In this document: positions 31,429-40,233 of the stretch, one piece after another
Position numbering within the stretch: the first letter of the stretch is position 1
Layout of the letters: each line of letters begins with the position of its first letter
DNA from: Cyclobacteriaceae bacterium
GTDB lineage: Bacteria > Bacteroidota > Bacteroidia > Cytophagales > Cyclobacteriaceae
Length of the DNA: 43,576 bases
NCBI GenBank assembly: GCA_019694905.1
Contig: JAIBBB010000006.1
Coordinates: 1 to 43,576, forward strand
Direction of reading: 5' to 3'
Position numbers and translations under genes: made by a program
The notes under the pieces: generated by a model
The model's database searches: none
Seen by the model: only the letters and a program-made list of their open reading frames with translations
Told to the model about the DNA's origin: nothing

Positions 31429-33119
31429 TCAATAGTCGGTGTCCAGTCCGAGCCTTTCCTTCATTTGCTGAAGGATGGGATACTTTTCCGCAAGGTGATC
31501 GAATTTCTCCTTGTTGGTGTACACGATTTTCTTTCCCTCAATTTCCATCAGTTCACCGTGCACTGTCACGGAACTGTGGTTGAGTTTGTCGCGCAGGTAG
31601 GCAATGAGTTGGGTCTTCATGCCTGCCAGCAGAGGTTCCTCTACCGGATTGCTCAGCGGTAAGGTGATTTTCTTTTCATGCACGGTAAACGGCCGTTTCA
31701 TCAGCTGGTATTCCGCCACCTGCATCTTGCGGGTTTCTGCGAAGGCATCCCACACCGGTTGGACAACGGCGACACTTAATTCGGGCTCTACAGCACCGGG
31801 GATAGGTGCAGCAACCTTTTCTTCCTTGACTGTTTCAACTTTAGGAGTGAAGATCTGATTGAGGTTGAGGGTTGATCTTGTGCGGCTGGAAGTTGACGGC
31901 GATGGTGAAGGCCCGGGTGCGGAGGGCTTGACCGGCATGGTGACCGGTGGCGCAGCGTTGACCGGAGGTGGAGTAGGGCCAGCGGGTTGCGCCGGTGCTT
32001 CTGTCAGTTCAGCTTCTTTTTTTCAGCCAGGGCTGGAGCCGTGGCTGTGGATGTCTCGGGGCGGAAAGTGCCGCGCACACTGGCCATCTTCATCAGGGCA
32101 AGTTCCACCAGCAGGCGCTGGTTCTTGCTGGCTTTGTACTGCAGGTCGCACTGGTTGGCGATGCTCAGCCAGGTGAGGAGGAGCGAGTAGGGGGCGGCGA
32201 CTGCCTGATCCGCGTAGCGCTTCTTCACATTCTCCGGAACCTCCATCAGTTGGACGGTTCGGGCATCCTGGGAGACGATGAGATTGCGGAAGTGCTCGCT
32301 GAGGCCCACGATGAAGTTGTTGCCGTCAAACCCCTTTCTAAGGATTTCGTCGAACAGCAACAGCGAAGTGGTTGGATTCTCGGTAAGCAGCCCGTCGGTC
32401 ACTTTGAAATAATACTCGTAGTCGAGGATGTGCAGGTTTTTCAGTACATCCTGGAAAGTCACGCCCTTGCCCGACGAGAATGTCACCATGAGGTCGAAGA
32501 TGGAGAGGGCGTCGCGCAGTGCGCCATCGGCTTTCTGGGCGATCAGGTGCAGCGCCGCCTCTTCGGCAGCGATGCCTTCGTGATCTGCGATCTTTTTGAG
32601 ATGCAGGGCGATGTCGGAGATCTGAATCCTGTTGAAATCGAAGATCTGACACCGGGAAAGAATCGTCGGGATGACCTTGTGCTTCTCGGTAGTCGCGAGA
32701 ATAAAAATCGCGTACGAGGGCGGCTCCTCCAGCGTCTTCAGAAATGCGTTGAAGGCCTGGTTCGAGAGCATGTGCACCTCGTCGATAATGTACACCTTGA
32801 ACTTGCCGAATTGCGGTGGGTAGCGCACCTGGTCGATCAGGTTGCGGATATCGTCGACAGAGTTGTTGGAGGCTGCGTCCAACTCGAAGATGTTGAGTGA
32901 ATTGGTCTCAGACTTTTCCTCGAAGTTGTTGATCAGGCGGGCAACAATGCGAGCACAGGTGGTTTTGCCCACTCCCCTGGGACCGCAAAAGAGGAGGGCC
33001 TGGGCGAGTTTATTGTTGTCGATGGCATTCTTGAGTGTTGTTGTAATGTGCTCTTGACCAACCACTTCCTCAAATCCAGAAGGGCGGTACTTGCGGGCCG
33101 ATACAACAAAGTTCTCCAT
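31429..33119 (-). CDS. dnaX: DNA polymerase III subunit tau, made by -1 frameshift from dnaX
   Basis: Clamp-loader ATPase. Zero-frame residues: Walker A CGPRGVGKTT, Walker B IIDEVHML, ATTEKHKVIPTILSRC (sensor 1 and arginine-finger region) and the collar domain. At residue ~368 the zero frame reads GAA AAA AAG AAG CTG AAC TGA. A -1 slip on A AAA AAG leads into an open frame that continues for 26 Pro/Ala-rich codons and then the 169-codon region ending LGLDTDY, which resembles the C-terminal polymerase-binding part of Bacteroidota DnaX. The full slipped product is 563 residues, as expected for tau. Start at 33119 (MENFVV) is chosen; a longer frame from 33287 enters the MFS gene and lacks similarity. 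The usual four-cysteine zinc module after Walker A is absent. Confidence 0.85.
32004..33119 (-). CDS. dnaX: DNA polymerase III subunit gamma (unslipped dnaX product)
   Basis: The zero-frame translation of dnaX stops at TGA (32004-32006), two codons after the slippery run's AAG-AAG, and yields a 371-residue ATPase without the tau tail. This is the size and domain content of gamma-type clamp-loader subunits. In Escherichia coli the same heptamer is used but the frameshifted product is the short one; here the relation is reversed, because the short form is the unshifted one. Whether the short form is really made and stable cannot be judged from sequence. Confidence 0.6.
   Translation of the reverse strand: MENFVVSARKYRPSGFEEVVGQEHITTTLKNAIDNNKLAQALLFCGPRGVGKTTCARIVARLINNFEEKSETNSLNIFELDAASNNSVDDIRNLIDQVRYPPQFGKFKVYIIDEVHMLSNQAFNAFLKTLEEPPSYAIFILATTEKHKVIPTILSRCQIFDFNRIQISDIALHLKKIADHEGIAAEEAALHLIAQKADGALRDALSIFDLMVTFSSGKGVTFQDVLKNLHILDYEYYFKVTDGLLTENPTTSLLLFDEILRKGFDGNNFIVGLSEHFRNLIVSQDARTVQLMEVPENVKKRYADQAVAAPYSLLLTWLSIANQCDLQYKASKNQRLLVELALMKMASVRGTFRPETSTATAPALAEKKKLN
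32016..32022 (-). promoter_or_regulatory. dnaX slippery heptamer A AAA AAG (-1 frameshift or transcriptional slippage site)
   Basis: On the minus strand the phased heptamer A_AAA_AAG lies inside a run of seven A (32017-32023). The zero-frame stop follows 9 nt after it. About 21 nt further 3' a 6-bp stem with loop CAACC (CCGGCG with CGCTGG) could form; that spacing is longer than in the classic bacterial example, and no clear Shine-Dalgarno-like stimulator is seen upstream. A homopolymer error (A7 for A8) would also restore the long frame and must be excluded. Confidence 0.65.
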
Positions 33120-33187: not shown

Positions 33188-34333
33188 CTATTTGCCGGCG
33201 GGGTCCTGCTTGCGGCCAGCAGCCAGCAGCAGCATCACCAGGAACAGCCCCACCACCAGCCAGAGCGACACACGCAGGCTGCTCCAATCGGCGATCATTC
33301 CAATGATGGGCGGCCCAAAGAGGAAGCCGGTGTAGCCAACGGTTGTCACCATGGCCAGGCCAACCCCCGGAGGAAGGTCTTTGGTGCTGCCTGCCAGGCT
33401 GTAGGCAATCGGCACCACGACCGACAGTCCGAGTCCCACCAGGAAGAACCCGCCGATGACGACGACAGGCTCTATGACGATCAGCACGGTAGACAAGCCG
33501 ACGGCTGCGATCACGCTGCAGATGATGATGAGTTTGCGATCGCCGAAAAGAATGCGCATGCGATCGCCGAAGATGCGGCCGATGGTCATGGCCAGCGCAA
33601 AGGCGGAAAGGGCCATCGGCGCCAATGCCTTGTCGGCTTTCACCACATTCTCCATGTAGTTGGTGCTCCAGTCGGCCATCGACCCTTCGCCCAGCATGCA
33701 GCAGAAAGCGATCACGCCGATACTCACCATGGCTGCGTTGGGCAGGCGGAAGGCTGGCGCGTCATGGTCTTTTTGGATGGGCTTGTCGTGAATGAGGTAG
33801 TAGCTGGACACCATTACTGTCATCATGCCGGCGCCGGTGATGATCATGAAGTGAGCGAACAGCCCTGTCTGCAATTCGGCAAAGAGCGATCCGCAGGCAG
33901 CACCCAGCATCATGCCGATGCTGAACAGTGCGTGAAATGAAGTCATGATCGGTTTGCCGAGCGCCTGCTCAACAAGTACTGCCTGCGCATTCATGGCAAC
34001 ATCCAGCATGCCGGTGGTGATACCGATGATGAAGTAAAGCGTAAACAGCATCCATGGCGATGAAGGCGGCAGCCAGGGAATGATGGGGACAAATACACAG
34101 TACAGGAAAGAGGCGGCGATGGTAATGCGTTTGCTGCCGTTGCGGATGATGAGCCAGCCGGTGAAGGGCATGGCGCACACGGCTCCCAGAGACATTGACA
34201 GCAGTACGAGGCCCAACGTGCCATTGTCCAGCGAGAACAGGTCCTGAATGCGCGGCAGCCGTGACACCCAGTTGGCATAGATAAAGCCGTTCAGGAAGAA
34301 CAGGATCTTGACGGCGATGCGCGATGGGCTCAC
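33188..34333 (-). CDS. MFS transporter, fucose permease / YbjJ-like
   Basis: 381 residues, twelve predicted membrane helices, starting at GTG. N-terminal FFLNGFIYANWVSRLPRIQDLF and GTTGMLDVAMNAQAV-like segment (GITTGMLDVAMNAQAVLVEQ) match the YbjJ/fucose-permease-like MFS group; later GEGSMADWSTNYM and TVGYTGFLFGPPIIGMIAD also fit. The substrate is unknown. It lies upstream of dnaX on the same strand with a 68-bp gap; whether dnaX is driven from the MFS promoter or its own is unclear. Confidence 0.85.
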   Translation of the reverse strand: MSPSRIAVKILFFLNGFIYANWVSRLPRIQDLFSLDNGTLGLVLLSMSLGAVCAMPFTGWLIIRNGSKRITIAASFLYCVFVPIIPWLPPSSPWMLFTLYFIIGITTGMLDVAMNAQAVLVEQALGKPIMTSFHALFSIGMMLGAACGSLFAELQTGLFAHFMIITGAGMMTVMVSSYYLIHDKPIQKDHDAPAFRLPNAAMVSIGVIAFCCMLGEGSMADWSTNYMENVVKADKALAPMALSAFALAMTIGRIFGDRMRILFGDRKLIIICSVIAAVGLSTVLIVIEPVVVIGGFFLVGLGLSVVVPIAYSLAGSTKDLPPGVGLAMVTTVGYTGFLFGPPIIGMIADWSSLRVSLWLVVGLFLVMLLLAAGRKQDPAGK

Positions 34334-34440
34334 GTGTGTGTGGGTAAGGTTTGGATCTTACGATCCGGATTGCAAAAGTAGCCGGCTTTCTGATGCGCCA
34401 TGCACGACATGCGGGGTTTGTTACTGCAATCGTTGTAAAA

Positions 34441-36861
34441 TCAATGGAATGTCAGCAATTCGCGCAGGCCAGGTTCTACAGCGAGCAGTACAGCAGCTTC
34501 TCCAAAGGCCGCCTTGTCCAGTGTTTTCTGCCACGCTGCACGTTCACCTTCTGTGATGGTTACTTTTCCTTCCAGTTGATCCATGATCCTGAGGCCTGCC
34601 AGCGACAGCGCGCCGAGGGTAGACGACAGGTTCAGTACTTTTTGCAGGCGCGGGTTTTCTGCCGCCATCATCATGATTTCATGGTGGTTGTTACGCCATT
34701 GTGTGAGCGTCGCCCGCAGGGCAGCCGCGTGGAGCCGGTGGGTGGAGTCTGCGAGGTAGGCATGCACCTGGCTGTTGAAGGTGCGCGCAGGAAGGCTTTC
34801 CGGAAGCGCCGCGTCGACGACTTCGTTGAGGGGAGTGAGCGTGCTGAGATGACCCATCTCCTGGGCCAGCCGGTCATACAGTTTCACTTCCTCGAGCGCG
34901 TCTACCAGCACGCGAACTGCCTCTGCATTTTTGCCCTGTGTCAGGTGATTGATCAATGCATCCTGCTGTCTGTGGTGGGCGGCGCCTCTGCGCACCAGGT
35001 ATTGATCGGTAATCGCCAGCCGCCGGTACATGTCATCAACTTGCGTGGTAAGCGCTTTTGGCGTCCAGAATTTTTCCGCGATCGCAGCGAGTCGCGGCCA
35101 CAACCGCGTGTCCAAATTATCCATCGACACCACTTCGGTCCACATCGCAGCCTCACCACCGAGGATGCGCTGTTGCTCGTCGGCAGTGAGCGGCTTCATT
35201 TGCTCCAGCCGTGGCGGGTGCGTGCCGGCCACGTCATGGCCGCCGCTCTTCACGCCGCTCAGCGGGAAGGACAACAGCCCAAAGCCAAGTTTACCCTTCA
35301 GGCTGTCGCCCTGAAGCGTGGATTCAAAACTAATTTCACCGTAGTCGCTCGGGAAAGTAAAGGCCAACTGATCCTGTTGCAGCGACGCCTTCTCGAAGGA
35401 TGTGTAGTTGCTCATCATGTTGAGCACGCCGCGCAACTCTGCACCCTCTCCGAAGAGCACCAGGCTTATGTCAATCTTGTTGTCATTCACATGAAGGGTG
35501 AGTTCGTACTGCTGCCAACGATTGGAGTCGGGCTGAATGGTCACCCCACCCGAAAGCACTTCGGGGTCGTGCGTGTAGTGCTTGCCGGCGTGCAGCTTGT
35601 GGTCGAGGTAATAACCATTCGAAAGGATGGCGGTGCCGTTCTTCTGCACAGCTTCGAAGAGCGACTTGTGAGAGCGCCAGCTTTGTACCACGATGTCTTT
35701 GCTGAGATCCTGGTGTAGAATCTCGTCCCAACCGGCCATGCGCTTGCCGTGCTGGCGGAAGATTTTTTCCATCCGCGCATTGAAATGCGCCTGCAGGTCG
35801 TGCGAATTGGCGATCTCGTGCGACTTCATGAAAGCCTGAATGGATGCGTTGTTCTTCCAGTGCTCGTCGGCCACTTCATCGCCGCCGATGTGGATGAATG
35901 GATCAGGGAACAGGGCGCTGACTTCGCCGATGAACTTGTCCAGGAAGTCATATACTTCTTCACGCGTGGGATCGAGCACGGGTGTGAGTATGCCGAAGTT
36001 GGTGTCGATCTTGTAGGGACCGGGAGCGCTGCCCAACTCAGGGTAGCCAACGAGGAAGCCGGTAGAATGGCCTGGCAGGTCAAACTCGGGAACAACCCGA
36101 ATGCCGCGGTCGCGTGCAAAGGCCACCACTTCGCGAATGTCATCCTGTGTGTAGTAGTTTCCATCCGACCCCGCCTCATGCAGTTTGGGGAACACCTTGC
36201 TCTCCATCCGGAACCCCTGGTAGTCGCTCAGGTGCCAGTGCAGCACATTGAGTTTGACCGCGGCCATCGCCTCAAGGTTGCGCAGCACGGCCTCTTTGGG
36301 AATCCAGTGACGCGAGACATCCAGCATCAGCCCACGCCATGCATAGCGGGGCTGGTCTTTGATGGTGGCCACCGGAAAGGCCTGACGGTCGCCGGAGGCT
36401 TGTGCGAGTTGCAGCAGCGTCTCCAGCCCACGCAAAACACCGTAGCGTGTGGCAGCATGGAGTTTTATCTGGGAGGTAGTGATGATGAGTTCATACGACT
36501 CATTCTCTTTCAACTGTTGCACCGGTTGCGCCGTGCTGTCGATGTGGATGTCGAGACCTGTGCCGGAGGTGCCCAGCGTCACAGCCGTCAGTTTGCTCAG
36601 GTTAGCAATGAATCGTTCGCCGGCGCGCCAGGCAACAGAATCAACCACACCACTCCAGGCAATACCGAGTGTTGGCTCAATGCGAAATTCTCCATCAGAC
36701 AAATGCGCTTCTGCCGGCAGCGGCATCAGCGTCAGACGCGCCCGGTCTTCATCTGATACAGGTAATGGTTTGGGGCGCAGCACAAAAAACCAGACAGCGG
36801 CGGCGACCACGACAAGGGTTGCCAGCACATAGGCGGAAATCTTCAGAAATCTTTTCAACAT
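34441..36861 (-). CDS. Exported beta-N-acetylhexosaminidase, GH20
   Basis: 806 residues with an N-terminal membrane/signal segment (YVLATLVVVAAAVWFFVL). A GH20b-like domain comes first (~50-155), then the catalytic barrel opens with RGLMLDVSRHWIPKEAV and LHWHLSDYQGFRMESKVFP. The catalytic pair is in FIHIGGDEVAD (Asp328-Glu329); the barrel continues to about residue 610 with an unusual inserted beta-rich stretch (~445-525, YELTLHVNDNKIDISLVLFG). The C-terminal ~200 residues are helical. It removes terminal N-acetylglucosamine or N-acetylgalactosamine. No uptake genes for these sugars are seen beside it, apart from the distant MFS and NagX-like genes. A promoter-like TAACTTTA lies 16 bp upstream. 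Confidence 0.93.
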   Translation of the reverse strand: MLKRFLKISAYVLATLVVVAAAVWFFVLRPKPLPVSDEDRARLTLMPLPAEAHLSDGEFRIEPTLGIAWSGVVDSVAWRAGERFIANLSKLTAVTLGTSGTGLDIHIDSTAQPVQQLKENESYELIITTSQIKLHAATRYGVLRGLETLLQLAQASGDRQAFPVATIKDQPRYAWRGLMLDVSRHWIPKEAVLRNLEAMAAVKLNVLHWHLSDYQGFRMESKVFPKLHEAGSDGNYYTQDDIREVVAFARDRGIRVVPEFDLPGHSTGFLVGYPELGSAPGPYKIDTNFGILTPVLDPTREEVYDFLDKFIGEVSALFPDPFIHIGGDEVADEHWKNNASIQAFMKSHEIANSHDLQAHFNARMEKIFRQHGKRMAGWDEILHQDLSKDIVVQSWRSHKSLFEAVQKNGTAILSNGYYLDHKLHAGKHYTHDPEVLSGGVTIQPDSNRWQQYELTLHVNDNKIDISLVLFGEGAELRGVLNMMSNYTSFEKASLQQDQLAFTFPSDYGEISFESTLQGDSLKGKLGFGLLSFPLSGVKSGGHDVAGTHPPRLEQMKPLTADEQQRILGGEAAMWTEVVSMDNLDTRLWPRLAAIAEKFWTPKALTTQVDDMYRRLAITDQYLVRRGAAHHRQQDALINHLTQGKNAEAVRVLVDALEEVKLYDRLAQEMGHLSTLTPLNEVVDAALPESLPARTFNSQVHAYLADSTHRLHAAALRATLTQWRNNHHEIMMMAAENPRLQKVLNLSSTLGALSLAGLRIMDQLEGKVTITEGERAAWQKTLDKAAFGEAAVLLAVEPGLRELLTFH

Positions 36862-36922
36862 GGCTATCGCAAAGAACTAAAGTTAGCCACAATTTGATTG
36901 AGAAGGGACGAAAAAAGAGCGG

Positions 36923-38800
36923 CTACTTGCTCAGGAGCGCCACGGTGCCGGTGCGCGTGAAGTGCTGGCCGGCCTGATCGGTGATTTCCGCTTTCCAGAT
37001 GTAGGTTGCTTCCGGCATCACGACGCCGTCGCGCTTGCCATCCCACGGCTTGTTCTTGTCGGAGAAATACAGGAGTGTGCCCCACCGGTCAAAAATCTGA
37101 AGGTGCATGCTGACAATGAACTGACCGAATACTTTGAATGAATCGTTTAGCCGGTCGTGGTTGGGTGTGAAGGCGGTGGGGGCGAAGAGGTGGGCTTCTT
37201 TTGTAATGGTAATGCTGTTGGACACCGACTGCTGCAACCCTGCCTGGTTGCTCTGCGCGTGGATGACATAGGTGACGCGCTGGTTGATGGTGTCGGGTGT
37301 GCTGTCGACGAGCGTGCTGTCGGTAGTGGAGAATGTTCTGAGCAGGGTTCCGTTGAGGTCGTACTTCTCTATGCTGTAGGCTCTGACGCCGTTCTGCCAG
37401 CCGACATACCGGGTCCAGTTGAGGGTGATGGAGTTGTCTTTGCCCAGTTCGCCGGCAAGCACCATGGGGCACACGAGTGATCCCTGCGGACTCTGGTTCT
37501 GGCAGACGTCTTTGTAATTGGTCACGTAGCAGAACCGCGCCTGGTCGCTGTATACCGGATCACTGAATGCTGGTGTGGTGGAGGTGCCCGCCAGTCCGAA
37601 GTTGGTGCGGTCGAACGAGCGGAAGATCCGGTAGGTGTCTGGCGTGTAGGCCGGATCTTGCAGCCAGGTGAGGTTTACACCCTCAGTGCCCACTACGGCA
37701 CTGGTATTGGTGATGGCCGTGGGAATTCTCGAAGAGAACGAGGTCACACATTTTTGCAGTGTACGGCTCTTGCTGCCGTTGCCATAGTTGGCCACCAGCT
37801 GATAGCAGTAGTTGGTGAGGCAAATCACGTTGGTGTCGTCAAAGGAGATGCCCGGAACGGTGACGTAGTTGCCGCCGTCGCGCAGCACGCTGAAGTTGGA
37901 AACGCCGCTCGTGGAGGTGAGCCAGCTGAGTTTGTTGACTTCACTCTCGGCCGTCAGCGACAGTTGCTGGCTGCAGATGATATTGGAGTACGTGTTTGTG
38001 CCATTGCACACATCGTATGCAGAAAGCCGGAAGCAGTAGTAGTTCTGGTCGGGCTTCAGGTTGGTGATCGTGTAGCTGCTGACTCCGTAGAGCAGTTGGA
38101 AGAGTTGGAAGTTGCTGTTGTTGTTGACCGCCACTTCGAGGTTGAGCCGCAGGTGCGGGGCGGCGGTAAAGTCGAGTTGCATGGTAGAGACGTCCACCAC
38201 GGTGAGTTGATCGATTTTCGGCGTCGGGAGGCTGGCGAGAGCCGTGAAGGCTTGCACATTCGCCGTGCAGTTGTCGGCGGATTTCAGGTCGCGGCCGCGC
38301 ACGGCGATATTGAAATTGCCGCCAACGCCATAACTATGCGAGGCCACAGCGTTGTTGCTGAAGGGGATGATGGTTTCGGGATTGTTGTCGTTGTTGAAGT
38401 CGATGACGTACTGATCGTAGTGGTTGTCGGTGACTTTGATCGTCGCGTTGTTGTTCGCGCAGGTGTAGATCTCAAACGCGGGCTGGATGTTGTCGTCGAC
38501 CGTGATGGTGATGTCGTCGGCGCCGATGCTCTGATAGATCACTGAAAGCGTGAAGGTGCCCGGTGTGTTGTAGGTGAAAGTAAACTGGTTTTGTGTCTGC
38601 GTGCCGTTGCTCTCATAGTCCATCACGCAGGGTTTTCCCGGCGTGCAGTCGCCGGCGAGCAGGTTGGTGAGTGTCACCGTAAACGGCGCACAGCCCTTCT
38701 TTTCATCTACCTGAAATCGACCGAGCCGGCTCACGTATTGTGCGCTGACGGGAAGGACCCCCAGGACGGCAAAGGATATGATGAGCAGACGGCGGATCAC
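36923..38800 (-). CDS. T9SS type-B sorted surface protein with PKD-like domain
   Basis: 625 residues starting at GTG with signal peptide ending LPVSAQ. The N-terminal region has a PKD-like domain (residues ~30-110, FTVTLTNLL and PGTFTLSVIYQSI). Several Fn3-like repeats follow, each about 90-100 residues (e.g. YYCFRLSAYDVCNGTNTYSN and RFCYVTNYKDVCQNQSPQGS). The last ~85 residues are the gliding-motility-associated C-terminal domain: FAPTAFTPNHDRLNDSF, LQIFDRWGTLLYF, WDGKRDG and EATYIWKAEITDQAG. This domain directs export by the type IX secretion system. Probable surface or secreted adhesin; ligand unknown. It starts 2 bp after the hutH stop, and a -7-like TAACTTTA inside the hutH 3' end may give it its own promoter. 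Confidence 0.9.
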   Translation of the reverse strand: MIRRLLIISFAVLGVLPVSAQYVSRLGRFQVDEKKGCAPFTVTLTNLLAGDCTPGKPCVMDYESNGTQTQNQFTFTYNTPGTFTLSVIYQSIGADDITITVDDNIQPAFEIYTCANNNATIKVTDNHYDQYVIDFNNDNNPETIIPFSNNAVASHSYGVGGNFNIAVRGRDLKSADNCTANVQAFTALASLPTPKIDQLTVVDVSTMQLDFTAAPHLRLNLEVAVNNNSNFQLFQLLYGVSSYTITNLKPDQNYYCFRLSAYDVCNGTNTYSNIICSQQLSLTAESEVNKLSWLTSTSGVSNFSVLRDGGNYVTVPGISFDDTNVICLTNYCYQLVANYGNGSKSRTLQKCVTSFSSRIPTAITNTSAVVGTEGVNLTWLQDPAYTPDTYRIFRSFDRTNFGLAGTSTTPAFSDPVYSDQARFCYVTNYKDVCQNQSPQGSLVCPMVLAGELGKDNSITLNWTRYVGWQNGVRAYSIEKYDLNGTLLRTFSTTDSTLVDSTPDTINQRVTYVIHAQSNQAGLQQSVSNSITITKEAHLFAPTAFTPNHDRLNDSFKVFGQFIVSMHLQIFDRWGTLLYFSDKNKPWDGKRDGVVMPEATYIWKAEITDQAGQHFTRTGTVALLSK

Positions 38801-38802
38801 GG

Positions 38803-40233
38803 TCAGAGCGTATCGGCTAAAGTTAGCGTTTTCAGAAAAACTTCGGCGGCGTGCATGTCTTTGTAGAGCAAACGATCAGACTGAAGGAACGGTACATGAT
38901 CCCTGAATTTTTTTACCATTTCCTGCAATTGCGGCGATGTGGTGAGCGGACGCCGGAATTCCAGCGCCTGACAGGCCGTGAGCAGTTCTACCGCCAGGAT
39001 GGCGTAGACGTTGTCGACCACTCTGAAGACTTTGGTCGCTGCATTCGCGCCCATGCTCACGTGGTCTTCCTGGCCGTTGCTGGACACGATGGAGTCCACC
39101 GACGCCGGGGTGCAGAACTGTTTGTTCTGGCTTACGAGGGAGGCGGCCGTGTATTGCGGGATCATCAGTCCGGAGTTAATACCCGGATCGGCCACAAGGT
39201 AATGCGGCAATTCGCGGGCGCCGGAAATTAATTGATAAGTGCGGCGCTCCGAAATAGAGCCAAGTTCGGATACGGCAATGGCGAGAAAGTCCAGTGCCAG
39301 TGCCAATGGCTGACCGTGGAAGTTTCCGGCGGAGATGATCTTGTCGTCGTCGGGGAAGATATTCGGATTGTCCGAGACGCCATTCACTTCAGCGAGCATC
39401 ACGCCCGTCACGTAGTCGATGGCGTCGAGGCTTGCGCCGTGCACTTGTGGCATGCATCGGAAGGAATACGGGTCCTGCACGTGGCGCTTGGCCTGATGGA
39501 TGAGTGCGCTGCCGTCGAGCAGTTGCAGCAGGTGCGCTGCGACACGTCCCTGGCCGCGCTGCGGGCGGATGGTGTGCACGGCGGGTTCGAAGGGTTCAGG
39601 GCGGCCGTCGAATGCATCGAGAGACAGTGCGCCGATCATGTCGGCGAGCTGGATCAGCCGGTGGGCGTGCAGGGTACACCACACGCCGTATGCGCTCATG
39701 AACTGTGTGCCGTTGAGCAGCGCGAGCCCTTCTTTGGCTTTGAAGTGAATAGGATCCCATTGCTGGCGGCGGAGCAACACATCGCCTGCGATACGTTCTG
39801 CCCCCATCTGCACTTCACCCAGGCCGAGGAGTGGCAGCGACAAATGTGCCAACGGTGCGAGGTCGCCGGAAGCGCCGAGTGACCCCATCTGATAGACAAT
39901 GGGAAGTGCCCCTGCGTTGAACAGCGCCGTCAGCCGTTCTACGGTCTCGAGCTGTACACCCGAATAGCCATAAGACAGCGACTGGACTTTCAACATCAGC
40001 ATCAGTCGCACAATCTCTGCCGGCACTTCAGGACCGGTGCCGCACGCATGTGACTTCACCAGGTTGTCCTGGAGGGTTTCCAGCTGGTGGTTGGAGATAT
40101 GCTTGTTGTAGAGCGAGCCGAAACCGGTGTTGATGCCATAGACCGGGTCTGCCGACTGTGCCATGCGGTTGTCGAGGTACTCGCGGCATTTGCGGATGCG
40201 ATTCTTCGCGTCGTCTGACAACGCCAGTGTCAC
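38803..40233 (-). CDS. hutH: Histidine ammonia-lyase HutH (true start probably further upstream)
   Basis: Deaminates histidine to urocanate. From GTG at 40233 the protein has 476 residues; YGINTGFGSL, the MIO-forming ASG triad (121-123) in GSLGASGDLAPLAH, GTQFMSAYG and RTYQLISGARELPHYLV are present. The homologous reading frame continues upstream for 25 codons to ATC at 40308 (HIISSQTLTLRDLSKLAFHE), which resembles the normal N-terminus of Bacteroidota HutH and would put the triad at ~146-148, close to its usual place. No ATG, GTG or TTG lies in frame in that extension, or further upstream within the hisS overlap, so the start is either ATC or affected by a base change. The given start is the first canonical one. 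It lies directly downstream of hisS. Confidence 0.88.
   Translation of the reverse strand: MTLALSDDAKNRIRKCREYLDNRMAQSADPVYGINTGFGSLYNKHISNHQLETLQDNLVKSHACGTGPEVPAEIVRLMLMLKVQSLSYGYSGVQLETVERLTALFNAGALPIVYQMGSLGASGDLAPLAHLSLPLLGLGEVQMGAERIAGDVLLRRQQWDPIHFKAKEGLALLNGTQFMSAYGVWCTLHAHRLIQLADMIGALSLDAFDGRPEPFEPAVHTIRPQRGQGRVAAHLLQLLDGSALIHQAKRHVQDPYSFRCMPQVHGASLDAIDYVTGVMLAEVNGVSDNPNIFPDDDKIISAGNFHGQPLALALDFLAIAVSELGSISERRTYQLISGARELPHYLVADPGINSGLMIPQYTAASLVSQNKQFCTPASVDSIVSSNGQEDHVSMGANAATKVFRVVDNVYAILAVELLTACQALEFRRPLTTSPQLQEMVKKFRDHVPFLQSDRLLYKDMHAAEVFLKTLTLADTL

Follow-up and report, generated by a model that had tools for sequence, protein, structure and literature searches.

The dnaX locus and its two reading frames

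On the minus strand of the window, by which we mean the whole analysed stretch of 43,576 nucleotides, the dnaX gene is divided over two reading frames. The zero frame (positions 32004–33119) starts with the ATG at 33119 and encodes a gamma-like product of 371 amino acids, which matches the NCBIfam model dnaX_nterm with an E-value of 5.8e-114. Near its end, in the context ...CTG GCT GAA AAA AAG AAG CTG AAC TGA, it contains a run of seven As (A7, 32017–32023, compared below with the same site in congeners) and the heptamer A AAA AAG (32016–32022, read from 32022 to 32016), which the frame check places in phase. The TGA stop codon of the short form (32004–32006) follows nine bases after the heptamer, just as the preliminary description of this DNA had stated. 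Starting 16 bases ahead of this stop codon, the -1 frame has no stop until the TGA at 31431–31429, while the zero and +1 frames meet early stops. From the heptamer onwards (31429–32016), the -1 frame consists of 195 codons and a TGA, encoding a linker and the carboxy-terminal part of tau. Immediately 5′ of the A7 run, folding compared with shuffled sequences predicts an RNA hairpin (32024–32047).

The two parts match different regions of the NCBIfam model PRK14971: the zero-frame part aligns with positions 1–364 of its 614 positions and the -1 open reading frame with the carboxy-terminal positions 426–613 (E-value 1.6e-16), each piecewise score being below the curated cut-off of the model. Because of these two matches, the parts can be regarded as colinear pieces of a single gamma/tau protein. 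Together with the frame check, they also bear out the earlier reading of the -1 frame as open from the heptamer into a tau-like carboxy-terminus ending at 31429. A Pfam search with the -1 part matched no family. When the -1 part is compared with 53 congeners, pN is lower than pS in all 53 comparisons (mean pN 0.43, mean pS 0.80, the latter near saturation). The shifted product is expected to have 563 amino acids. Of the top 120 homologues listed, counting the protein of the window itself, 118 have 447 amino acids or fewer and the remaining two, which are uninterrupted, have 561 and 564 (P0118 and P0068); the source names listed include Cyclobacteriaceae, Chryseolinea and Cytophagales. Beside dnaX, the region 33188–40233 encodes an MFS transporter, a GH20 hexosaminidase, a protein with a type IX secretion signal domain and an aromatic amino acid lyase.

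Layouts of dnaX in the genus and across Bacteroidota

A search of 62 genomes of the genus gave a match in 58 and a readable site in 55, three fragments being unreadable. The run is A10 in 49 of these sites, A11 in two and A7 in the window only. The tau part is in the -1 frame in 51 of the 55 (48 with A10, two with A11 and the window); in one further A10 site the -1 frame is cut by the end of the contig. Two sites have one continuous frame, in which tau is reached without a shift (G013 and G024, with runs of A9 and of A8 plus an N), and in one site, with A9, tau is in the +1 frame. Since the same split is present in 51 of the 55 readable sites, it is more than a chance event. The preliminary description had proposed a comparison of related dnaX genes for both the split and A7: in the genus, the split is kept, while A7 itself is not shared. 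An unbroken frame, which that description would have counted against recoding had all relatives shown it, is confined within the genus to the two sites mentioned. The same relatives support its statement that the unshifted frame gives the short protein and the shifted frame the long one, the reverse of the arrangement in Escherichia coli.

Base composition offers a view of how A7 stands apart. The third-position GC content of the window's dnaX is 0.78, the second-highest of the 55 genus sites, and AAG is used more often than AAA (12 to 6); locus L116, with a value of 0.79, still has A10. From codon usage alone, three consecutive AAA codons would be expected in about 16 of the 55 sites, against uninterrupted runs of at least nine observed in 53, although the relatedness of the sites makes this comparison only indicative. 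These 53 sites have A9 to A11, and A7 in the window falls short of the run of nine or more As of the Thermus type. According to the part of PMC1088944 consulted, nine is the run length at which selection becomes visible in many genomes.

In total, 230 loci were analysed. Eight were unreadable (three from the genus, four from the order and one from the set of named Bacteroidota), leaving 222: 55 genus, 88 order and 79 named sites. Thirteen of these have no run of seven or more near the site, making their frame class unreliable, and were left out, so that counts of layouts and hairpins use 209 sites with 206 distinct upstream stretches; all these counts include related, and hence non-independent, sequences. 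Among the thirteen, L079 and L098 have a zero frame that stops ahead of the selected run, and in three of the 209 rows (L099, L160 and L193) the tau frame continues beyond the end of the retrieved sequence. The run is A10 in 180 of the 209 sites. The tau frame is -1 in 114 and +1 in six, giving 120 sites with a split layout; it is continuous (frame 0) in 88 and cut by a contig end in one. In a quickly built tree of 208 rows, the continuous or split state changes at least 28 times, compared with a mean of 67 and a minimum of 54 in 200 shuffles of the labels, which indicates that the state flips often, but not at random. If rows lacking a run of at least seven are included, there are 30 changes on 220 rows, against 72 on average in the shuffles. 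With a tau frame that flips often and an A run that is mostly retained, the set forms a natural experiment on the evolution of recoding signals.

The +1 layout deserves separate mention. Genus g40 is represented in the order search by two genomes, G102 and G183 (L210 and L266), and both have tau in the +1 frame after A10, so that their tau needs the loss of one A or the gain of two; a loss of one base matches the published stem-loop case discussed below. L210 has a strong flush hairpin, with a z-score of -3.13 in 50 bases. Some of the +1 layouts may be errors, though G102 and G183 agree with each other. A -1 shift of the ribosome cannot lead into a tau part in the +1 frame, and A10 occurs in all three layouts, so that the set points to slippage during transcription.

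These comparisons also bear on two explanations that dispense with recoding. An error of sequencing or assembly in the homopolymer, with a true run of A8 and one continuous frame, had been put forward as the main rival. The genome is indeed a draft of 397 contigs, and G013 and G024 do have a single frame; even so, such an error is very improbable. Apart from the split being shared with the congeners, the window's GAA AAA AAG AAG is one substitution away from the GAA AAA AAA AAG of congener L024 and several substitutions away from the commoner TTA or GTA AAA AAA AAA, and neither alignment contains an indel in the run. In the protein database, a protein identical to the 371-residue zero frame is found on six contigs and the carboxy-terminal open reading frame on 17. 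The longest contig with both halves as separate proteins measures 727,814 bases and is distinct from the window's contig of 43,576 bases, although its source is not shown and may be a second assembly from the same sample. Alternatively, the two halves could be made separately, the second one by reinitiation or from an internal start such as the ATG at 31938, without any frameshift. The database does hold the carboxy-terminal open reading frame as a protein of its own (P0121), together with 105 further relatives of 93 to 270 amino acids, retrieved by a search that takes only candidates of similar length. We nevertheless consider separate synthesis improbable: separate starts would require neither a -1 frame that opens shortly before the run, as it does here, nor the observed conservation of the run, the ATG at 31938 is located 78 bases into the -1 part, and 88 of the 209 sites hold one continuous frame across the run.

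As an observation apart from the recoding site, the stretch of dnaX from the P-loop to the DAAS motif (32886–32957 in the window, minus strand) contains a single cysteine. Fewer than three cysteines are present there in all 55 genus sites, and at least three in 73 of the 88 order sites and 52 of the 79 named sites. Judging from these sequences, the zinc module of DnaX seems to have been lost in the genus.

The predicted upstream hairpin and the search for signals of ribosomal frameshifting

The predicted hairpin of the window has the sequence CAGCCA-C-GGC-UCCA-GCC-C-UGGCUG and is followed directly by A7. When the 60 bases upstream of the run are folded, the z-score is -3.38, a value matched by none of 200 shuffled sequences; for 50 bases it is -2.69 (reached by two of 100 shuffles) and for 30 bases -3.64. 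Among the 209 sites, the hairpin ranks fifth by energy and 14th by z-score. The arrangement, an inverted repeat directly 5′ of a slippery run, is that of stem-loop-mediated slippage, here as a predicted fold. The same combination of a hairpin beside a homopolymer characterizes intrinsic terminators and a known slippage site of this kind.

In 30-base windows slid along the 209 sites (with each N replaced by A or T in these multi-site folds), structure peaks, in each set, at the position flush with the run. The mean z-score there is -1.42 for 55 genus, -0.94 for 84 order and -1.41 for 70 named sites, while the next-lowest position has -0.81, -0.58 and -0.95, respectively. The native 30-base stretches have mean energies of -8.03, -6.66 and -6.05 (genus, order and named sites), compared with -6.37, -4.81 and -3.44 for chimeras, in which 5′ parts are exchanged between genomes; in none of the three sets did any of 200 such re-deals reach the native mean. 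A hairpin of -5 kcal/mol or better within four bases of the run is predicted for 82% of the genus, 62% of the order and 47% of the named sites, and for 62%, 30% and 22% of the corresponding chimeras. The flush hairpin is not universal, being weak or missing from the predicted folds of many sites. One fixed hairpin geometry is found in 20 of the 55 genus sites, where 13.4 would be expected, a modest enrichment that nine of 1000 re-deals reached.

The hairpin is not restricted to one layout. Where tau is in frame 0, the mean flush z-score is -1.14 in the order and -1.57 in the named set (-0.40 in the two genus sites); where it is in the -1 frame, the values are -1.41, -0.64 and -0.90 for the genus, order and named sets. 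The hairpin is strongest in the six +1 sites. In longer windows (50 bases upstream and 60 downstream, 141 sites), the mean z-scores of -0.80 upstream and -0.66 downstream differ little, so that the peak is confined to short windows. Across the 209 sites there is no trend towards stronger hairpins with shorter runs: the mean energies are -5.4 for A7 (four sites), -11.4 for A8 (two), -6.2 for A9 (11) and -6.8 for A10 (180). We found no report of an upstream hairpin in dnaX in the literature searched, in which few papers were examined beyond their listings, and the parts of PMC3711429 examined do not mention one for its two-ORF dnaX genes.

Of the signals known from the ribosomal shift in E. coli, the phased A AAA AAG is present in the window. 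A Shine-Dalgarno-like stimulator was rejected, none of six words being found in the 30 bases upstream. An unusual fold downstream was not found in the window either (z-scores between -0.05 and -0.88), and the best local downstream stem begins 20 bases after the heptamer rather than close to it. As a general stimulator, a downstream stem was also rejected, because downstream windows have no peak like the upstream one in any of the sets; strong downstream folds do occur at a handful of individual sites, L136 and L187 among them.

A further feature of the E. coli system is a single lysine tRNA for both AAA and AAG. The genome of the window (G000) contains a tRNA-Lys(CUU) gene (contig C377, L237 1501–1574). 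The search of this assembly, which is 92.6% complete, gave 32 tRNA matches, including a partial one that was left uncalled, with no UUU gene seen among them; a tRNA-Lys(UUU) gene is assumed to be present. The CUU tRNA would be expected to weaken ribosomal shifting of the E. coli type. Contamination is an unlikely origin for its contig, as the gene next to the tRNA has homologues with 74–77% identity in five of eight congeners tested. In none of these five congener loci does a tRNA lie beside that gene, and tRNA-Lys(CUU) may have been acquired in this high-GC species. In G016, where 30 of 36 tRNA loci were read, only tRNA-Lys(UUU) was seen. Regarding stem loops on the 5′ side, the part of PMC5009743 consulted describes one located four bases 5′ of a coronavirus shift site that weakens -1 shifting, and another that affects ribosomal shifting in a plant virus, for which enhancement is one suggestion.

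Possible slippage or ribosomal shifting, and comparison with known systems

Tau may well be produced through slippage of RNA polymerase on the A7 run, probably helped by the predicted hairpin in the nascent RNA. Whether the shift is made by the ribosome or the polymerase had been left undecided in the preliminary description; the upstream hairpin, the lack of ribosomal stimulators and the tRNA-Lys(CUU) gene lean towards the polymerase, and, on sequence and modelled folds, hairpin-assisted transcriptional slippage is favoured over -1 ribosomal frameshifting. The zero frame would encode the gamma-like clamp-loader subunit, with the carboxy-terminus of tau entered at A7. Slippage on the run would yield some transcripts in which the run has gained one A or lost two (A8 or A5), to be translated normally into tau, and unslipped transcripts would give gamma. 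The A10 of the relatives is about as long as the RNA-DNA hybrid inside the polymerase, for which 9–10 base pairs are given in the part of PMC5009743 consulted. The abutting hairpin would form at the moment when the whole hybrid is A-T, where it could pause the polymerase and loosen the hybrid, and an all-A hybrid held by the hairpin could then realign. In the window, where the run is broken to A7, a hairpin among the strongest of the set could compensate, and part of the tau may additionally come from ribosomes that shift to -1 on A AAA AAG. Against slippage it can be said that A7 is short compared with usual slippage runs and that E. coli ribosomes shift on this very heptamer. A difficulty for the hairpin model is that tau here needs one A more or two fewer, while the published hairpin case deletes a single base.

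It is possible, if somewhat doubtful, that tau arises instead by a programmed -1 ribosomal frameshift, in which two tRNA-Lys molecules slip back one base on A AAA AAG while the remaining ribosomes stop at the TGA to give gamma, the species having moved away from slippage on A10. The exact phasing of the heptamer and the shortness of A7 would fit such a shift, and the A7 dnaX of Chlorobium phaeobacteroides (PMC3711429) is named as a candidate for it in the part of PMC5009743 consulted. A cassette of the ribosomal type also occurs in this order: G219 (L221, about 1420–1470) has A6 in GGA AAA AAG TAA with tau in the -1 frame, a GGAGGT nine bases upstream of the heptamer, a nine-base-pair hairpin three bases downstream and, among 30 of 31 tRNA loci read, only tRNA-Lys(UUU). 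This is an E. coli-like cassette in the reversed layout, and it may reflect a separate switch from slippage to a ribosomal mechanism. All of these additional elements are absent from the window; it is devoid of a Shine-Dalgarno-like word and of strong structure nearby downstream, its genome carries tRNA-Lys(CUU), and its 5′ stem loop would, by analogy with the coronavirus site, tend to weaken a -1 shift.

Extending the slippage reading to the phylum, we tentatively propose that Bacteroidota dnaX contains a module of hairpin and A10 that sets the ratio of gamma to tau in whichever frame tau is encoded, and that the window has a variant with A7 and a stronger hairpin; we would put this at somewhat short of probable. 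A terminator-like geometry would then serve the recoding of an essential gene. Should this be correct, much of a phylum would depend on programmed polymerase slippage and a nascent hairpin for a core gene of replication; hairpin-aided slippage is otherwise cited, in the part of PMC5009743 consulted, from one insertion element. Databases that store the short half alone under the name gamma/tau, with the other half frequently entered as a hypothetical protein, would be misreading such genes.

The reversed layout is not new in kind, as it was published by Antonov et al. in 2013 (PMC3711429), who, in the part consulted, describe dnaX with tau in the -1 frame for 17 genes from 12 genera. Twelve of the 17 have a poly-A run of A7 to A10, nine of them A10 and one, that of C. 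phaeobacteroides, A7. What is added here is the extent within Bacteroidota, the frequent changes of frame, the hairpin adjoining the run and the exceptional A7 in a genome with tRNA-Lys(CUU), none of which we found in the literature searched, as far as the parts consulted go. The window resembles these two-ORF genes in having the short form in the zero frame, tau in the -1 frame and poly-A at the transition. The Bacteroidota set differs from that list of 17 genes in 12 genera in its 120 split sites out of 209, its 28 or more changes of state and its flush hairpin.

With the E. coli -1 ribosomal frameshift, the window shares A AAA AAG in phase; it differs in the reversed roles of the frames, in lacking an upstream Shine-Dalgarno word and a strong downstream stem close by, and in the presence of tRNA-Lys(CUU). 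Thermus thermophilus dnaX, with slippage on A9, is similar in its A homopolymer at the boundary between gamma and tau and in the early stops in the other frames. It has two lysine tRNAs, where the window's genome has a CUU one, and the part of PMC5009743 consulted suggests a possible link between the second lysine tRNA of Thermus and its use of slippage. In T. thermophilus, tau is one open reading frame and slippage leads to gamma, whereas slippage on A7 in the window would lead to tau. Closest in geometry is the Roseiflexus insertion sequence (Penno et al. 2015, as cited in the part of PMC5009743 consulted), in which a 5′-adjacent inverted repeat enables slippage on T5C5. Its product has lost one C, without insertions, and mismatches are given as the explanation; such mismatches would be absent in an A run. 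Like this element, the window has a predicted inverted repeat directly 5′ of the slippery run, but, where the element loses one C from T5C5, the A7 of the window has to gain one base or lose two to give tau.
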